Part shown: piece by piece, positions 16,750 to 26,111 of the stretch
Numbering within the stretch: the stretch's first letter is position 1
How the letters are laid out: the number at the start of each line of letters is the position of its first letter
Assembly (NCBI GenBank): GCA_016282705.1
Contig: JAEELO010000044.1
Span: 1 to 32,200, forward strand
DNA length: 32,200 nt
Direction: 5' to 3'
Origin: Candidatus Gastranaerophilales bacterium
GTDB taxonomy: Bacteria; Cyanobacteriota; Vampirovibrionia; Gastranaerophilales; Gastranaerophilaceae
Notes under the pieces: generated by a model
Told to the model about the DNA's origin: nothing
What the model saw: the letters and a program-made list of their open reading frames with translations, nothing else
Databases searched by the model: none
Translations under genes and position numbers: made by a program

Positions 16750-17226
16750 ATGCAATCTGAAAAACAAATAATAAATACTTCAGGAACAGGCGCAACGGCA
16801 AAAGTTCCTTCTGAAATTGCAAATCGTTTTAATTGGGGTGCTTTCCTCCTTGACTGGATTTGGGGGGTGTTTAATAAAACATGGATTCCGTTAATTTCAT
16901 TGTTTCTTGGAATTATACAATATATAATTTCAATGAAAATAAGTATTTATTTTAATAATGTTAATTCAAGGGGGGTATCGCAACCTATAATAATTTTTAA
17001 TCTTATTTCCTTTTGTATATTATTATTATTTAAATTTTGGTATGGAATAAAAGGTAATACTTGGGCTTGGCAGAATAAAGCATGGAAAGATTCTAAGCAT
17101 TTTCATACAATACAAAAAACATGGGCAATGGCAGGGATTGCAATATTAATAGGACTATCATTGTTCTACATTTTTATATTCTTTATTTGTTTTTCTTTTG
17201 AGTTATATAAGAACAAAATGATTTAA
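16750..17226 (+). CDS. Small membrane protein, first of a tandem paralogous pair
   Basis: 158 aa of unknown function. A soluble N-terminus (INTSGTGATAKVPSEIA) leads into a Trp-rich block FNWGAFLLDWIWGVFNKTWI, then three likely membrane segments (about residues 47-67, 79-97 and 124-152). Between the last two lies YGIKGNTWAWQNKAW, a short loop shared with the next gene. The block layout resembles small DUF2628-like membrane proteins, but the family assignment is uncertain. The Shine-Dalgarno is weak (AAGAG about 12 bases upstream). The gene downstream is about 60 per cent identical in the conserved blocks, while the region between the first two membrane segments differs. Confidence 0.7.
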   Translation: MQSEKQIINTSGTGATAKVPSEIANRFNWGAFLLDWIWGVFNKTWIPLISLFLGIIQYIISMKISIYFNNVNSRGVSQPIIIFNLISFCILLLFKFWYGIKGNTWAWQNKAWKDSKHFHTIQKTWAMAGIAILIGLSLFYIFIFFICFSFELYKNKMI

Positions 17227-17363: not shown

Positions 17364-17849
17364 ATGTCGTATTTACAAAACAGTAATATGAAGCAAACAA
17401 TAAATACTTCAGGGAAAGGTCCAACTGCCAAAGTCCCTTTAGAAGTTGTAAAACATTTTAACTGGGGTGCATTCTTTTTTGACTGGATTTGGGGGTTGTG
17501 TAATAACAGTTATATTCCCTTAATTTCGTTAGCGCTGGGAATTATGTTTTGTATATACTCCCAAATTGCGGATACTCCAACAAAATATGCCCATTCGTAT
17601 GACTCAGGTTCTATGAACTTTTTTGGTATTCAAGTTATTATATTTATAGTATTGAAAATTTGGTATGGAATAAAGGGTAATACTTGGGCTTGGCAAAATA
17701 AAGAATGGGAAAATTCCGAATATTTTCATCATATACAAAAAATATGGGCAATGGTAGGAACCGGAATATATTTGGGTTTGTTTCTAATTATGGGGTTAAT
17801 ATTTTTGTTTTTTGGATTGTTGTTTTTAGGATTTAGAGGACTTGCTTAG
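17364..17849 (+). CDS. Small membrane protein, second of a tandem paralogous pair
   Basis: 161 aa, paralogue of the preceding gene. Shared blocks are INTSGKGPTAKVP, FNWGAFFFDWIWGLCNNSYI, IPLISLALGI, and WYGIKGNTWAWQNKEW followed by HIQKIWAM. Three membrane segments are predicted, the last very hydrophobic (GLFLIMGLIFLFFGLLFLG). The start is at 17364 with a loosely placed GAGA upstream; an internal Met (MKQTINTSG) aligns better with the start region of the paralogue but lacks a Shine-Dalgarno. A 137-base AT-rich spacer with no terminator separates the two. Convergent with argS. Function unknown. Confidence 0.7.
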   Translation: MSYLQNSNMKQTINTSGKGPTAKVPLEVVKHFNWGAFFFDWIWGLCNNSYIPLISLALGIMFCIYSQIADTPTKYAHSYDSGSMNFFGIQVIIFIVLKIWYGIKGNTWAWQNKEWENSEYFHHIQKIWAMVGTGIYLGLFLIMGLIFLFFGLLFLGFRGLA

Positions 17850-20413: not shown

Positions 20414-21526
20414 ATGATACAAACACCCCAAATGCAATATATGCCGGTTCAACAGCCAGTACAAGCTGCTTATCAACCGCAAGTTCAAACTGCACCTGTT
20501 CAGTATAATCAAACACCGGGTGTGTTATATAATTATCCGACGACAAGTTGTTATTCACAACCTTATTGTACAGGAAAATCACAATATAACGGAGTTAATA
20601 TAGAAATTATAAATCCTCAGGGACAGGGAATGTCTCCTCAAGGTTGTTATCAGATGCCTGCACAATATGTTCCTGTTCAACAACAGGTAGCAATACCGCA
20701 GCCATATGCAGTTCCTTATCCTGTTTCTCAGGCAGTAAATCAAGCTCCTCAACCATATATGCAGCCGACATATGTTCAACCTCAACAACCGGCTGTACAA
20801 CAAATTCCTGCTCCGCAGATAACTCCTCAACAACCTCAAATTCAACCAGCATATGTTCAACCTCAACAACCGGCTCCGCAGGTAGTTCAACCACAAACAG
20901 TTCCTGCAATTCAACAACCGGCAATTCCGGATAACTCACCGTTACCTGAATCATTTGCAGGTCGTTTAAAAAGCTCAAATCCGGATGAACAAAAAGCAGC
21001 AATTGAAGAAATCGCAGAAGCAGTAAAAAATAATAAACCGGAAGGCAGAGTTCTCATTGACACAGTAGTTGTTGATGCATTAGTTGATATTATTGATAAA
21101 GATACTTCTTCTCTTCAAGCTCCAAGTCCTGAAGTATTAGCATTAAGACAAAAACCTCAAGATCAATTATCTGCAGCTGAAAAAGAGAAAGCAACAACTC
21201 CTTCTCCGTTAGAAAAGGCTGAAATTAATCAACGCTATGCTTTATATACAATAGCTTATATGCAAGACAGATTAAACAAAGAAGTAGAAGCAGCAAAAGG
21301 TCAACCGGTTGAATTAAAAGACCTTCCTTGTATAGAAAAAGTTATAGATACTGTAAAATCAAATCAGAATCCAATGTTAAGAGCAAGCGCAATAGCTTCA
21401 TTATCTTATATTGCAAGACCTGGATACAAAGCTGATTTATCAACAATATTTGAATTAGCTAAAAACGATGAAGATGCAGATGTTAGAGATGCAGCAGCAA
21501 AAGCATTGGAAGCTTTAAATAAATAA
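20414..21526 (+). CDS. Pro/Gln-rich protein with C-terminal HEAT-like repeats
   Basis: 370 aa, unnamed. Residues 1-175 are low complexity, dominated by Gln, Pro, Tyr, Val and Ala, with repeats of the type YVQPQQPA; there is no signal peptide. Residues about 178-370 are helical and look like HEAT repeats: FAGRLKSSNPDEQKAAIEEI, LVDIIDKD, MLRASAIASLSYIARPG, and DADVRDAAAKALEAL, the last a typical HEAT consensus. Such proteins usually act as scaffolds; the disordered part may mediate multivalent contacts. AAGGAG lies six bases before the ATG. A bidirectional terminator follows. The 280 bases upstream contain nested inverted repeats. Confidence 0.75.
   Translation: MIQTPQMQYMPVQQPVQAAYQPQVQTAPVQYNQTPGVLYNYPTTSCYSQPYCTGKSQYNGVNIEIINPQGQGMSPQGCYQMPAQYVPVQQQVAIPQPYAVPYPVSQAVNQAPQPYMQPTYVQPQQPAVQQIPAPQITPQQPQIQPAYVQPQQPAPQVVQPQTVPAIQQPAIPDNSPLPESFAGRLKSSNPDEQKAAIEEIAEAVKNNKPEGRVLIDTVVVDALVDIIDKDTSSLQAPSPEVLALRQKPQDQLSAAEKEKATTPSPLEKAEINQRYALYTIAYMQDRLNKEVEAAKGQPVELKDLPCIEKVIDTVKSNQNPMLRASAIASLSYIARPGYKADLSTIFELAKNDEDADVRDAAAKALEALNK
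20769..20875 (+). repeat. Duplicated 26-bp coding repeat in the Pro/Gln-rich region
   Basis: The same 26 bases, beginning CATATGTTCAACC and ending AACCGGCT, occur at 20769-20794 and 20850-20875, encoding the TYVQPQQPA / AYVQPQQPA units. Identity at DNA level implies recent duplication within the low-complexity region. Confidence 0.8.
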
Positions 21527-21545: not shown

Positions 21546-21577
21546 AAAAAAGCAGATGTTTAATCATCTGCTTTTTT
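21546..21577. terminator. Bidirectional rho-independent terminator
   Basis: Stem AAAAAGCAGATG (21546-21557 plus the G at 21558) pairs with CATCTGCTTTTT (21565-21577) around a six-base TTTAAT loop; both strands end in a T-run. It serves the convergent HEAT-like gene and the 845-aa gene, whose stop codon is inside the stem end. Confidence 0.85.
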
Positions 21578-24113
21578 AATCTATTTTTTCAAATGAAGAT
21601 ATTCTCGGGTCCAAAAGTCTTATACCTTTATCTTCAAAGTCTACTCTGCAGAATTGTATTTTATCGCCAAAATGCATAAAGTCTACAATTACACCGTTTC
21701 CAAGCTTCGGATGGTGTACTTTATCTCCGATTTGATATGGTACTTTATCAAGCATGCTGTCATAATCATCTACGGCTTGATAATAAGGAAGATTTTTAGA
21801 TTTCTTTTCTTTTATATTTTCATTAACAGGCGGTGCATTTACTTCAATCGGTTTTGACTCTTCTTTTTGTTCGGAATTTGTATTATCGGTATTTGCATCA
21901 GATAAATTGCTATTGTCAGCTTTCTCTTCTATGTCATTGATAATCTCGTCAATTGAAGTCATATTGTTATTATCTTCATCATCTGTTTCTTCTTCTTGAT
22001 TATTTTCAATAAGTTCATCTAATGCATCATCTTCTGTCTCTTCTTTAGAATCATTGTCGGGTAATTTTTCTTCTGATTCTTCTGTATTTAATTCATCAAG
22101 AATATCTTCTGTATCTTGGATGTTTTCTTCCGCTTCTTGAACGGATTCTTCCTTATTGTCTTGTGAAATGTTTTCAACTGCTGTATCTTCTTCAGAAATA
22201 TCATCAATGATGTCTTCAGTTGGTTCTTCTTCGGAAGGTTGAATATTTTCTTCTAAATCATTAATAACTTCTATATCTTCCGAATTAACGGTTTCATCAT
22301 CAATATCAGTTATATCTGAAATTTCTTCTGTTTCGTCATTTTGAATAGTTTCTAAAACTTCATCATCATCTTCTTCGGGAAGAGTTTCTATTTCTTTATC
22401 TTCATCTTCCTGTATTAAAGAACTTTCGTTATCAGATTCTTCAATTGAATTGTCAATAGGAGAAAAAATGTCATATTTTTTCTCTTCAACTGTTTTTTGC
22501 GGTTTTCTTATATCGTCAATGGTTATTTTTTCTTCATTTTGTTCATCTAAGAAATCAAGGTCTTCATCATTAAAATCATCATCTATGTTTTGTTCTTTGT
22601 CTTCTTTTTGCTCAATATAAACTTCATCTTGACCCGAAACGGACATCGGACGAACAATATCATCTGATACTGACATCGGACGAACAATATCATCTGATAC
22701 TGACATCGGACGAACAATATCATCTTTTGCCGACATCGGGCGTATTATATCTTCCGATGAAGGCATAGGCATGGTTTCTATGGATTCTGTTTCAATTACG
22801 TTTTTAGGTTTTGAATATTTATTCTTTTGAAAAGTAAACAATCTGTCTACATCTTTTTTTATCTCATTTTCTGTTACTTCATTTGGAGTTGAAGCATTAA
22901 AGGATTGCAATTCTAATATTAACGGGATATATAATTCGGATTCGCCGTATACTATAAATTCAGTTGAATTAATCCTATTTATATAATAATTGTATGCTTC
23001 TTCATCGTTAATTATTTTTGAAGGTTTGAATAATATTTGATTTTTACATATTGATTTTAATGTTTGTCTGTATTTGCTGTCATATGATGTTGATACTATA
23101 GGTATAATATTGGGTTTATTGTATAAATTTGTAATTGTCTTTTTATCTGCCTCAATATCGTTTAAAGACATAATCAAATAACAATTTTGTTTAACCAATT
23201 CTTGTATTGTTTGAATTGCAAATTTATACCATTTATCTTCCAGAGATGATGCATCAATAATAACAACATTCTGGTTTTCTAAAATATTATTTAAAAGTTC
23301 AAATTGGGTTTTACTTTCTGCAAATATACCTTCTTGTGCATATAACCAAAGTTTATTTCTTAAAAGTTTTAAACCTGAAATCGGATTAGTTTCCAGTTCT
23401 TTATCTATGACTGTTTTAAATAAAGTGAACGGAAGAAATTTATTATCTATTGTTTTGATATATTCTCTTAATTCAAGAACAATACTTTGTATAACAACTT
23501 TATCTTCAATAGGACAATCTGTTGTATCGTATTCAAGAATGTTATTAAAAGCTTCTATATTCAAAGGAAGCTTAAAACTTTCTGCTATTTTTAATCTCGG
23601 AATATTATTTGCCGAACTGTAATTGCCGTTTAAATCAAAAATTATAACCTTATTCTTTTGAGAAATTAATTCGGCAACGATGTTTTGAATTATGGTTTTT
23701 ACTGTATCATATCTGTCAGATTGTATGTATAGTCTGTCATTAAGACAAGACATAGGAACCTTTACAAAACATTCATTATGATTTGATAATTTCCCAAGAT
23801 AGATATTATCTTCGGGATTTTTAATCAATTCAATAATCTCATCCGGATGAATATAAACAACACTGGATGTTTTTAACGGGATATAACCGTTGTAATATGA
23901 CAAATTATCATCTTTATCAATTGAAAGAATTAATCTTACATCAGCAATATTATTGTTTGAATCTTCAGTAGTGGAAATATTTAAAATTTGTGCAATTAAT
24001 TTTTGGTTAGAATCTTCAATAAGTAAAAAATCAGACGGCAGTAAATGATTCCCTGCCGGATTATATACTATTCTTGAAATATTACCTTTTACTTCCTGAA
24101 GCTGCACTTCCAC
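21576..24113 (-). CDS. HerA-like protein lacking Walker A, with acidic repeat region and UvrD-type C-terminal domain
   Basis: 845 aa. Residues 1-95 resemble the HAS-barrel of HerA ATPases. Residues about 100-420 follow the HerA layout: YLGKLSNHNECFVKVPMSCL, then KVIIFDLNGNYSS in place of the usual DxxGEY, then VVIIDASSLED as a Walker B-like strand. The phosphate-binding loop is degenerate (YIQSDRYDTVKT instead of GxxGxGKS), so ATP hydrolysis is doubtful. Residues about 450-490 are four 10-residue DDIVRPMSVS repeats, followed by some 270 very acidic residues. The last 55 residues (YQIGDKVHHPKLGNGVIVD...) look like the Tudor-like C-terminal domain of UvrD/PcrA, which binds RNA polymerase in relatives. 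The start is a GTG at 24113; a second GTG two codons on is equally possible. Function unknown; a role in DNA or transcription-coupled processes is only inferred. Confidence 0.65.
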   Translation of the reverse strand: MEVQLQEVKGNISRIVYNPAGNHLLPSDFLLIEDSNQKLIAQILNISTTEDSNNNIADVRLILSIDKDDNLSYYNGYIPLKTSSVVYIHPDEIIELIKNPEDNIYLGKLSNHNECFVKVPMSCLNDRLYIQSDRYDTVKTIIQNIVAELISQKNKVIIFDLNGNYSSANNIPRLKIAESFKLPLNIEAFNNILEYDTTDCPIEDKVVIQSIVLELREYIKTIDNKFLPFTLFKTVIDKELETNPISGLKLLRNKLWLYAQEGIFAESKTQFELLNNILENQNVVIIDASSLEDKWYKFAIQTIQELVKQNCYLIMSLNDIEADKKTITNLYNKPNIIPIVSTSYDSKYRQTLKSICKNQILFKPSKIINDEEAYNYYINRINSTEFIVYGESELYIPLILELQSFNASTPNEVTENEIKKDVDRLFTFQKNKYSKPKNVIETESIETMPMPSSEDIIRPMSAKDDIVRPMSVSDDIVRPMSVSDDIVRPMSVSGQDEVYIEQKEDKEQNIDDDFNDEDLDFLDEQNEEKITIDDIRKPQKTVEEKKYDIFSPIDNSIEESDNESSLIQEDEDKEIETLPEEDDDEVLETIQNDETEEISDITDIDDETVNSEDIEVINDLEENIQPSEEEPTEDIIDDISEEDTAVENISQDNKEESVQEAEENIQDTEDILDELNTEESEEKLPDNDSKEETEDDALDELIENNQEEETDDEDNNNMTSIDEIINDIEEKADNSNLSDANTDNTNSEQKEESKPIEVNAPPVNENIKEKKSKNLPYYQAVDDYDSMLDKVPYQIGDKVHHPKLGNGVIVDFMHFGDKIQFCRVDFEDKGIRLLDPRISSFEKID
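22642..22761 (-). repeat. Four tandem 30-bp units encoding a 10-residue RPMS repeat
   Basis: Units at 22642, 22672, 22702 and 22732, each 30 bases and starting GACATCGG. The first two are identical, the third differs only in its last bases, and the fourth is diverged. A decayed fifth follows. They encode DDIVRPMSVS-like units. Near identity at DNA level suggests copy-number change by slippage or recombination without breaking the frame. Confidence 0.9.
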
Positions 24114-24222: not shown

Positions 24223-25215
24223 ATGATTAAAGAACCTGAATATGCAGCTTTATTAAAATACAGACGTAACGGATTGACTGAACAAATCCATTATGGCGTT
24301 ATTTTGCATATGAATAAAGACGGAATAATAAGTAAAATCGGTGAAGATAAGGGGTATAAATTTTATCATCGTTCTTGTATGAAGCCGCTTCAAGTTTCTC
24401 CTCTTATTGATTTGGCATTGGATAAAAAATATAATCTTTCCGAAGAAGAAATTGCGGTTTGCTGTGCTTCGCATACAGGAGATTTATATCATCAGGAAAT
24501 TATAAAAAATATTTTGAAAAAGGCAGGTTTTTCCGAGGATGATTTACTTTGCCATCCGCATGAACCTTTAAGCAAAGACGAGCAAAATCGATTAATAAAA
24601 AATAATCTGGAAATCCAAAAACTTCATAATAACTGTTCAGGCAAGCATTCTGCCATGTTGTTAATATGTAAAGAATTGGGTTTTAATACAAAAAATTATA
24701 AGGATTTTGAAAACCCTTTATCGGACTTCATTATAAAACAAGTATGTAATCTTTGCGAAGTTGATAAAAAAGAAATTGTAATAAGCAAAGACGGATGCGG
24801 ACTTCCCGTCACAGCAACAACATTAGAAGCATTAGGCAGGGGGTTTTTAAATCTTTTTTGCGACAATAAATATGAAAAAATAAAATCGGCATTTTTAAAT
24901 AATCCATATGTAATCGGAGGAAAAAACAGGCTTGATTCCGAAATAATTAATGCATCTGGAAATTTAATTGCAAAAGTCGGAGCCTGCGGATTATGTGTTG
25001 TTATTAATACTCAAAAACAAGAATGTATTGTTGTTAAAATTGCGGATTCAAATATGGATGCAAGAAGTATTGTTACAATTGATACTTTATTGCAATTAAA
25101 ATGGCCGGAAAATGATAATTTTACCGACCAAATAAAAAATATATATTGTAAGGATATTATTTCTCAAGATAATACTCTTCTTGGGGACATATACAGTTGT
25201 TTTGATATTGATTAA
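24223..25215 (+). CDS. L-asparaginase, type II-like thermolabile family (Rhizobium etli AnsA type)
   Basis: 330 aa. This family (Pfam asparaginase_II, PF06089) is unrelated to the E. coli asparaginases and hydrolyses asparagine to aspartate and ammonia. Signatures: FYHRSCMKPLQVSPLI (the RS..KPLQ nucleophile region), CCASHTGDLYHQE, KLHNNCSGKHSAML, and SKDGCGLPVTATTL. Cysteines and lysines in these motifs bind zinc and form the active site in structurally studied members. No signal peptide, so it is cytoplasmic. No Shine-Dalgarno precedes the ATG; a TAAAAT hexamer (24211-24216) ends six bases before it, as for smpB. Divergent from the 845-aa gene and convergent with the next gene, sharing a TTAA stop overlap. 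Confidence 0.93.
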   Translation: MIKEPEYAALLKYRRNGLTEQIHYGVILHMNKDGIISKIGEDKGYKFYHRSCMKPLQVSPLIDLALDKKYNLSEEEIAVCCASHTGDLYHQEIIKNILKKAGFSEDDLLCHPHEPLSKDEQNRLIKNNLEIQKLHNNCSGKHSAMLLICKELGFNTKNYKDFENPLSDFIIKQVCNLCEVDKKEIVISKDGCGLPVTATTLEALGRGFLNLFCDNKYEKIKSAFLNNPYVIGGKNRLDSEIINASGNLIAKVGACGLCVVINTQKQECIVVKIADSNMDARSIVTIDTLLQLKWPENDNFTDQIKNIYCKDIISQDNTLLGDIYSCFDID

Positions 25216-26111
25216 CCAAAGGTTTTGAATGTATCTTCAATATTTTTACTGATAACTTGTTTTATGGAATCAAGTTCTTTTTCAACTGCACTTTGCTGTG
25301 TTTGAACCTGCTCTAATCTTAATTCAAGAACTTTATCTCTTGCATTAATTTCAGCCATAGCATCTTCGTATTCGGCTTCAGCTTGTGCATCATCGCTTTC
25401 GTCACTGATTTCTACAATTCTGCTTGACCCTTGCCATACAAGATCATTCCACTTTTTAGCTTCAGTATCTTCTTTTTGGATAAGCCATTGACCTGAGGTT
25501 AACATTTTGTATAAAAAGTCTTTATCTAGACATCTTTCATCAGTTGTTGTACGTATGTGGTTTGACGGATGTTGTTTATTATATTCGGCAACTTCATCAC
25601 TGTATAAACTTACATTTACAACTCCTGTTTTGTCGCCTGTATATTGCTCGTTATAGAATTTGATTGCGGCTTCCCAAGATGTACCGAAGGATGCTTTTTG
25701 TTCATCATCCAAGTCGGACATATATGTGTTAATGAAATCCGAAAGATTATAAAAATATTTATTTTCAGGATCTTTTTCTCCGTCTTGAGTGGTTACTTTT
25801 ACATAATCGCCCGGAATAATTTCATTTCCGTCTAAATCTACAAGTTTTAGACCTAATCCGCCGCCGGTTGTTTGTGCTGCCTGTGTCAAAGTTTGATAAG
25901 TTAACGGTTGATTTGAAGGTTCTCCGTTTTCGTTAAGTAATACCGCCGTCAACATCCTGTTACTCATTGCCGCATTATATTTCTCCGCAATTTCCTGTGT
26001 TGATTGAGCCAGAGCAACTCTTTGCTGTGATATTTGTTGTGCCTCATATATCAGGTCGCTATTTCTGGCGGTGAGGCATAAATAACGTCCCTGTGATGCT
26101 GCCAATCCCAT
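25212..26111 (-). CDS. Hypothetical protein with N-terminal helical MGLAASQGR motif
   Basis: 299 aa. The N-terminus MGLAASQGRYLCLTARNSDL followed by YEAQQISQQRVALAQ is a helical block that I associate with a family repeated in Melainabacteria-like genomes (recall, not a search). The middle (about 75-200) is mixed and Gly/Asp-rich, with GGGLGLKLVDLDGNEIIPGDY. The C-terminal 80 residues are a long coiled coil (AEAEYEDAMAEINARDKVLE and LRLEQVQTQQSAVEKELDSI). No signal peptide. The coil-at-both-ends layout recalls flagellar or secretion-filament subunits and their regulators, but there is no specific hit. AAGGAG lies nine bases before the ATG. Its stop overlaps the asparaginase stop. Confidence 0.6.
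   Translation of the reverse strand: MGLAASQGRYLCLTARNSDLIYEAQQISQQRVALAQSTQEIAEKYNAAMSNRMLTAVLLNENGEPSNQPLTYQTLTQAAQTTGGGLGLKLVDLDGNEIIPGDYVKVTTQDGEKDPENKYFYNLSDFINTYMSDLDDEQKASFGTSWEAAIKFYNEQYTGDKTGVVNVSLYSDEVAEYNKQHPSNHIRTTTDERCLDKDFLYKMLTSGQWLIQKEDTEAKKWNDLVWQGSSRIVEISDESDDAQAEAEYEDAMAEINARDKVLELRLEQVQTQQSAVEKELDSIKQVISKNIEDTFKTFG

Follow-up and report, generated by a model that had tools for sequence, protein, structure and literature searches.

HerA (DUF87/PF01935) is the translocase of HerA-NurA end resection, and residues K154, D176, E356 and R381 of the Sulfolobus islandicus enzyme are described as critical for its activities in the available part of PMC4351679. HerA/FtsK translocases are also kept in defence operons, by BREX-related HerA/FtsK-centred capture systems and by DndH, according to the accessible sections of PMC12839542. 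The helicases PcrA and UvrD end in a Tudor domain (PF21196). In PcrA, H681, W684, K712 and L714 of this domain are needed for binding RNA polymerase, as reported in the text available from PMC5397179, and the portion of PMC8318588 at hand describes the ligand as the helicase interaction motif, a TGE hairpin present in RpoB and UvrB. Further background sources, likewise available in part, are PMC9960219 and PMC7585439. Here we describe a gene in a window of 32,200 nucleotides (the whole stretch of DNA that was analysed) from a Candidatus Gastranaerophilales bacterium, the product of which combines elements of both systems. The initial annotation knew of no such architecture; the combination would be a UvrD docking domain set on an unrelated body, a HerA-family pseudo-translocase. 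The open literature searched, as far as its text was accessible, held no description of an inactive or Tudor-bearing HerA in Gastranaerophilales/Melainabacteria.

The features of the gene are collected in Table 1. On one side its neighbour is an asparaginase II gene, divergently oriented; on the other is a convergent gene whose product is a proline/glutamine-rich HEAT-repeat protein. Its start may instead be the GTG at 24107, because the relatives begin at the third codon.

Table 1 Features of the HerA-like gene and its product, in window coordinates.
Feature	Position	Strand	Basis
Whole gene: pseudo-HerA / acidic linker / UvrD-type Tudor protein	21576..24113	-	ORF, 845 aa, GTG start
HerA-family domain, residues 1-420	22854..24113	-	Profile matches
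Residues ~1-90, place of HAS barrel; RecA-like core after	within 22854..24113	-	
P-loop position, residues 131-140 (QSDRYDTVKT)	23694..23723	-	Gapless alignment to HerA P-loop
D160, equivalent of HerA D176	23634..23636	-	Mapped via PDB HerA alignment
Residues 281-290, strand VVIIDASS (283-290)	23244..23273	-	Pairs with HerA strand preceding Walker B
Residues 311-319 (CYLIMSLND), probable Walker B strand remnant, no EE	23157..23183	-	hhalign
Residues 341-347 (STSYDSK) at HerA QRP position	23073..23093	-	Alignment
Array of four 10-residue repeats containing RPMS	22634..22758	-	30-bp tandem array
Acidic linker, residues 501-770	21804..22613	-	110 D/E, 17 K/R
PcrA/UvrD-type Tudor domain, residues 792-845	21579..21740	-	PF21196 at 21612-21731, residues 795-834

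Taken alone, the window copy matches DUF87 weakly (E 0.0022, 18.6 bits against a cut-off of 23.2). A profile of 50 relatives matched the PDB HerA chain 4d2i with E 6.3e-6 for the whole chain and 4.4e-4 for the best stretch, and this alignment runs without gaps through the P-loop. With E values up to 10 admitted, 17 of these 50 relatives match DUF87, the best at 2.3e-9. Among three full-length relatives scanned, L036 lies above the curated DUF87 cut-off with 30 bits, and L044 and L098 gave no DUF87 match at E 0.1. Alignment of 92 N-domains by hhalign with 16 canonical HerA sequences extended over 416 columns (E 7e-8 local, 4.7e-10 global), and alignment with all 55 HerA ORFs, a set that contains a few ORFs twice, gave E 5.3e-7 local and 3.2e-10 global. 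Such strong values came only from sets that included the canonical HerA of families f10 and f11 together with L112-L120. The 50-relative profile scored E 0.3 against 12 similar HerA sequences, and comparisons with a 41-locus HerA set (E 0.0017, probability 15), with the cyanobacterial and f8 HerA set (E 0.64 local, 0.93 global) and with the f12 set (E 0.0034 local, 0.84 global) failed or were weak. Eight neighbour families of 4-12 sequences each, used as negative controls, reached at best E 0.013 local and 0.038 global, and reversed HerA sequences in hmmsearch reached 0.029 compared with 2e-6 for the forward sequences.

On this profile evidence, residues 1-420 are a HerA-family domain, and the HerA-like framework proposed at the outset is borne out by profile methods other than HHpred itself. 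The barrel that was part of the proposal fares less well, as the HAS-barrel place at residues ~1-90 is covered by short hhalign matches at residues 12-54 with E 0.03 at best, which lend it weak support. The domain resembles HerA in profile over its length and shares with it the D176 equivalent and a C-terminal strand with a conserved glycine. Unlike HerA, it has lost the P-loop glycines and the arginine finger, the window copy has no EE pair, a linker and a Tudor domain have been added, and NurA is absent from the sampled genomes of the order.

The loss of the catalytic residues was followed column by column across the 92 N-domains, with the K154 and D176 columns placed by counting along the 4d2i chain and the R381 column placed by the QRP motif. 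In the window protein the three positions are occupied by V138, D160 and Y344, respectively. Glycine occurs in none of the 92 sequences at the G151 column and in none at the G153 column, and the R381 column holds Tyr (55), His (27), Ser (7) or Phe (3) and never Arg. At the K154 column, Thr predominates (50), followed by Lys (16) and other residues (26). The D176 column, invariably Asp in the 50 members of the relative profile, is Asp in 88 of the 92 (Lys in 3, Gln in 1). The Walker B EE pair lies opposite a gap, with hhalign pairing CYL of the window protein with VLI of HerA; when S316-L317 are set against EE by eye, Asp or Glu appears in 21 of 92 sequences at the S316 column and in none at the L317 column. 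The statement that a Walker B-like strand is kept would be a misassignment if VVIIDASS was meant, since that strand, in appearance the most Walker B-like, aligns with the one that precedes Walker B in HerA. Neither GK[ST] nor GxxxxGK occurs anywhere in the 845 residues of the window protein, so the GxxGxGKS loop is gone both from its site and from the rest of the chain, as had been read from the sequence. The sole P-loop-like string among the 92 is GIFAEGKS at residue 261 of L006, outside the site. Judged by these alignments, the ATPase centre is lost, and the loss probably dates to the common ancestor of the order or earlier. The protein might still bind nucleotide, or be active as an NTPase, by way of an unusual loop and serve as a nucleotide sensor, and the retained Asp, which in HerA lies near the ATP site, and the 16 lysines at the K154 column point in that direction; but the complete want of the P-loop glycines and of the arginine finger across the 92, together with the missing EE pair of the window copy, makes this reading very unlikely.

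Between the two folded parts lies a linker that varies widely, with 105-606 residues (median 278) and a D/E fraction of 0.20-0.44 (median 0.33) in 81 ORFs. In the window protein the tract of "about 270 acidic residues" is indeed 270 residues long, but only the 110 counted in Table 1 are Asp or Glu; 195 D/E are found in the four stretches counted in this protein together. RPMS occurs four times at residues 458-491 of the window protein. Among the genomes with complete ORFs, the motif was present in five, the other four (L007, L010, L011, L012) having one copy each, and on these counts we rejected the repeats as a conserved part of the protein. Of the architecture first claimed, the HerA-like domain, the acidic tract and the Tudor domain are thus present, and the RPMS repeats fall outside what is conserved.

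The C-terminal domain of the window protein matched PF21196 below the cut-off of 23.9 in hmmscan (E 1.7e-4, 21.8 bits) and above it in the whole-genome search (26.9 bits), in agreement with the UvrD-type domain proposed earlier. The set of tails comprised 87 distinct ORF strings of at least 500 residues with a stop, among them L138, a copy of the window gene that is cut short. The Tudor domain was picked out by script in 81 of the 87 and by eye in four more (L006, L014, L072, L101); of the remaining two, L046 is masked and L052 ends early. Across 86 distinct tails, the position of PcrA H681 is His in 82 and Thr in 4, and that of L714 is Leu in 83 and Ile in 1 (masked or gapped in 2). K712 corresponds to Arg in 77 and Lys in 7, again with 2 masked or gapped, and W684 to Tyr (57), His (25), Phe (3) or Leu (1), with no Trp; the single Leu belongs to the window copy and is unique among the 86. 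Going by these residues, the binding face appears largely kept across the tails. The domain is like the PcrA/UvrD Tudor domain in its sequence, its place at the extreme C-terminus, the long linker before it and most residues of the binding face, whereas it differs from the PcrA domain in having mostly Arg for K712 and mostly Tyr or His for W684, and from PcrA/UvrD in sitting on a dead HerA core and not on an SF1 helicase.

A search of 58 genomes gave matches in 56, one of which (G057, from another order) matched only through the Tudor domain of its UvrD; therefore the N-domain is present in 55 of the 57 genomes of the order, in some of them split over contigs, and it is missing from G012 and G027. 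Among 194 genomes of the class Vampirovibrionia, the N-domain was found in 97, all within the order and with one match each. G150 is an order genome without the N-domain among the genomes listed, and a further 77 non-matching genomes should, going by the sorting, belong to other orders. In seven close pairs, dN/dS was 0.04-0.13 for the first 425 residues, 0.01-0.20 for the last 75 and 0.05-1.62 in between, ratios that are rough because dS exceeds 1 in several pairs. On these values, purifying selection acts on the HerA-like domain and on the Tudor domain alike. The catalytic motifs are gone, as they would be in a decaying, functionless HerA relic, but such decay is contradicted by ratios well under 1 in both folded domains and sits poorly with a gene present in nearly every genome of the order and matched once in each of 97, which leaves that explanation hardly credible.

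Of 146 class genomes, 60 had NurA; all 60 lie outside the order, and the window genome has none. DUF87 matches at 1e-10 occurred in 73 of the 146. Full-size HerA ORFs with DUF87 were found in families f8, f10, f11 and f12, whereas f9, f14 and f15 gave weaker matches, the ORFs being 377-511 aa long; the NurA positives lie in f8, f11 and f12. Two f10 genomes from another order (G077 and G104) have full-size HerA yet are not among the NurA positives. G199 is the sole order genome with a DUF87 match at 1e-10, in a 1832-aa ORF (G199:C26:16217-16831, E 7.2e-13). In the window genome the three DUF87 matches are weak and short, and an intact HerA partner is therefore unlikely.

Because a disabled HerA motor is joined to a helicase docking domain, it seems that the old motor has taken on the role of an adaptor. 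Our preferred reading, held tentatively and rated a little below an even chance, is that a HerA pseudo-translocase has been repurposed as an ATP-independent adaptor whose Tudor domain would dock on UvrB or RNA polymerase. The HerA-like core would be retained as a body that binds protein or DNA and may still form an oligomer or ring, and the long acidic linker would connect it with the PcrA/UvrD-type Tudor domain. Docking would be on proteins with the helicase interaction motif, most probably UvrB and possibly RNA polymerase, and would bring the body, without ATP, to nucleotide-excision-repair or transcription complexes, where UvrD may be its competitor for the docking site. What stands at the level of sequence are the homologies, the catalytic losses, the order-wide spread, the purifying selection, the retention of most of the binding face and the absence of NurA from the sampled order genomes. 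The kept Tudor face and the purifying selection also fit the earlier suggestion that the protein may serve the repair or transcription machinery as a scaffold or an inactive partner. A more far-reaching version, in which the order dismantled HerA-NurA and the HerA ring was frozen as an ATP-independent DNA clamp or platform that serves excision repair or transcription while its acidic tether holds it to UvrB or RNA polymerase, is distinctly unlikely in our estimate. If the adaptor reading is true, a pseudo-translocase of the HerA family has been kept and selected throughout an order; if the Tudor domain docks on UvrB or RNA polymerase, UvrD would have a competitor order-wide, and such a competitor would bear on the coupling of excision repair and transcription in bacteria without NurA.

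The candidate partners were examined in the window genome, where the strict helicase interaction motif is found in neither UvrB nor RpoB, the latter being cut by a contig end. UvrB carries a relaxed form, INPVSGEII, at residues ~229-237 of its frame, near the position of E233 in B. subtilis. In RpoB (L171, G000:C119), the match to rpoB model positions 16-218 runs directly into that to positions 296-870, and the protein therefore seems to lack the insertion to which helicases bind in other bacteria. No motif hairpin was seen at the SI1 region of this RpoB, and a loose match near residue 100 was not counted, lying outside SI1. The relaxed DNA pattern has 16 sites in the window genome and one in the backward control; seven of the 16 are in frame within ORFs of at least 60 aa, two being relaxed motifs (UvrB and one other) and five strict. 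Binding to RNA polymerase is doubtful in the window genome because its RpoB has neither the motif nor an SI1 hairpin, and of the two UvrB is the better candidate, though the motif would be there for UvrD anyway. Weighing against docking on these partners are the Leu at the W684 position of the window copy, the five other ORFs with the strict motif and the want of a repair-linked neighbour. The protein could instead be a DNA or nucleoid tether without a role in excision repair, its Tudor domain binding nucleic acid or another protein and its acidic linker holding the body at a distance or competing with nucleic acid. The Tudor domain of E. coli UvrD also binds DNA non-specifically, according to the available part of PMC7585439, and such a tether would agree with an RpoB that has no motif hairpin at SI1 and with the 40 loci compared, at which no repair gene was recognised among the neighbours. 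On the other hand, most of the 86 tails either retain three of the four PcrA residues for RNA polymerase binding or replace them conservatively, and we consider this alternative somewhat unlikely.

Across the same 40 loci the gene has no constant neighbour, the genes beside it differ between families, and the neighbouring nuclease for which the initial annotation had proposed to look was not found. A defence system was considered and rejected, with no PADLOC match for the protein and two neighbours; a phage family was likewise set aside (no PHROGs match), as was a mobile origin (the N-domain is without a match in plasmids or phages). The HerA-family module is common to this gene and to the BREX-related and DndH systems (PMC12839542, as far as the accessible text goes), whereas here there is neither a PADLOC match nor a fixed set of neighbours. 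Two window ORFs of ~160 aa, at 17364-17849 and 16750-17226, had no confident Pfam/NCBIfam match. The commonest neighbours are a gene that we take, from its sequence, to be ComM-like (11 of 40 loci) and, at eight of the 40 (L036, L037, L040, L042, L046, L047, L050 and L051), a small same-strand gene that lies upstream and encodes 152-179 aa. The proline/glutamine-rich protein at 20414-21526 of the window has C-terminal HEAT repeats (PF13646, E 2.5e-7), and relatives of it lie near the gene at four of the 40 loci, the window included. Relatives of the protein that starts MGLAASQGRYLCLTARNSDL (25212-26111), itself without a confident Pfam/NCBIfam match, are likewise found near the gene at four of the 40 loci, the window among them.
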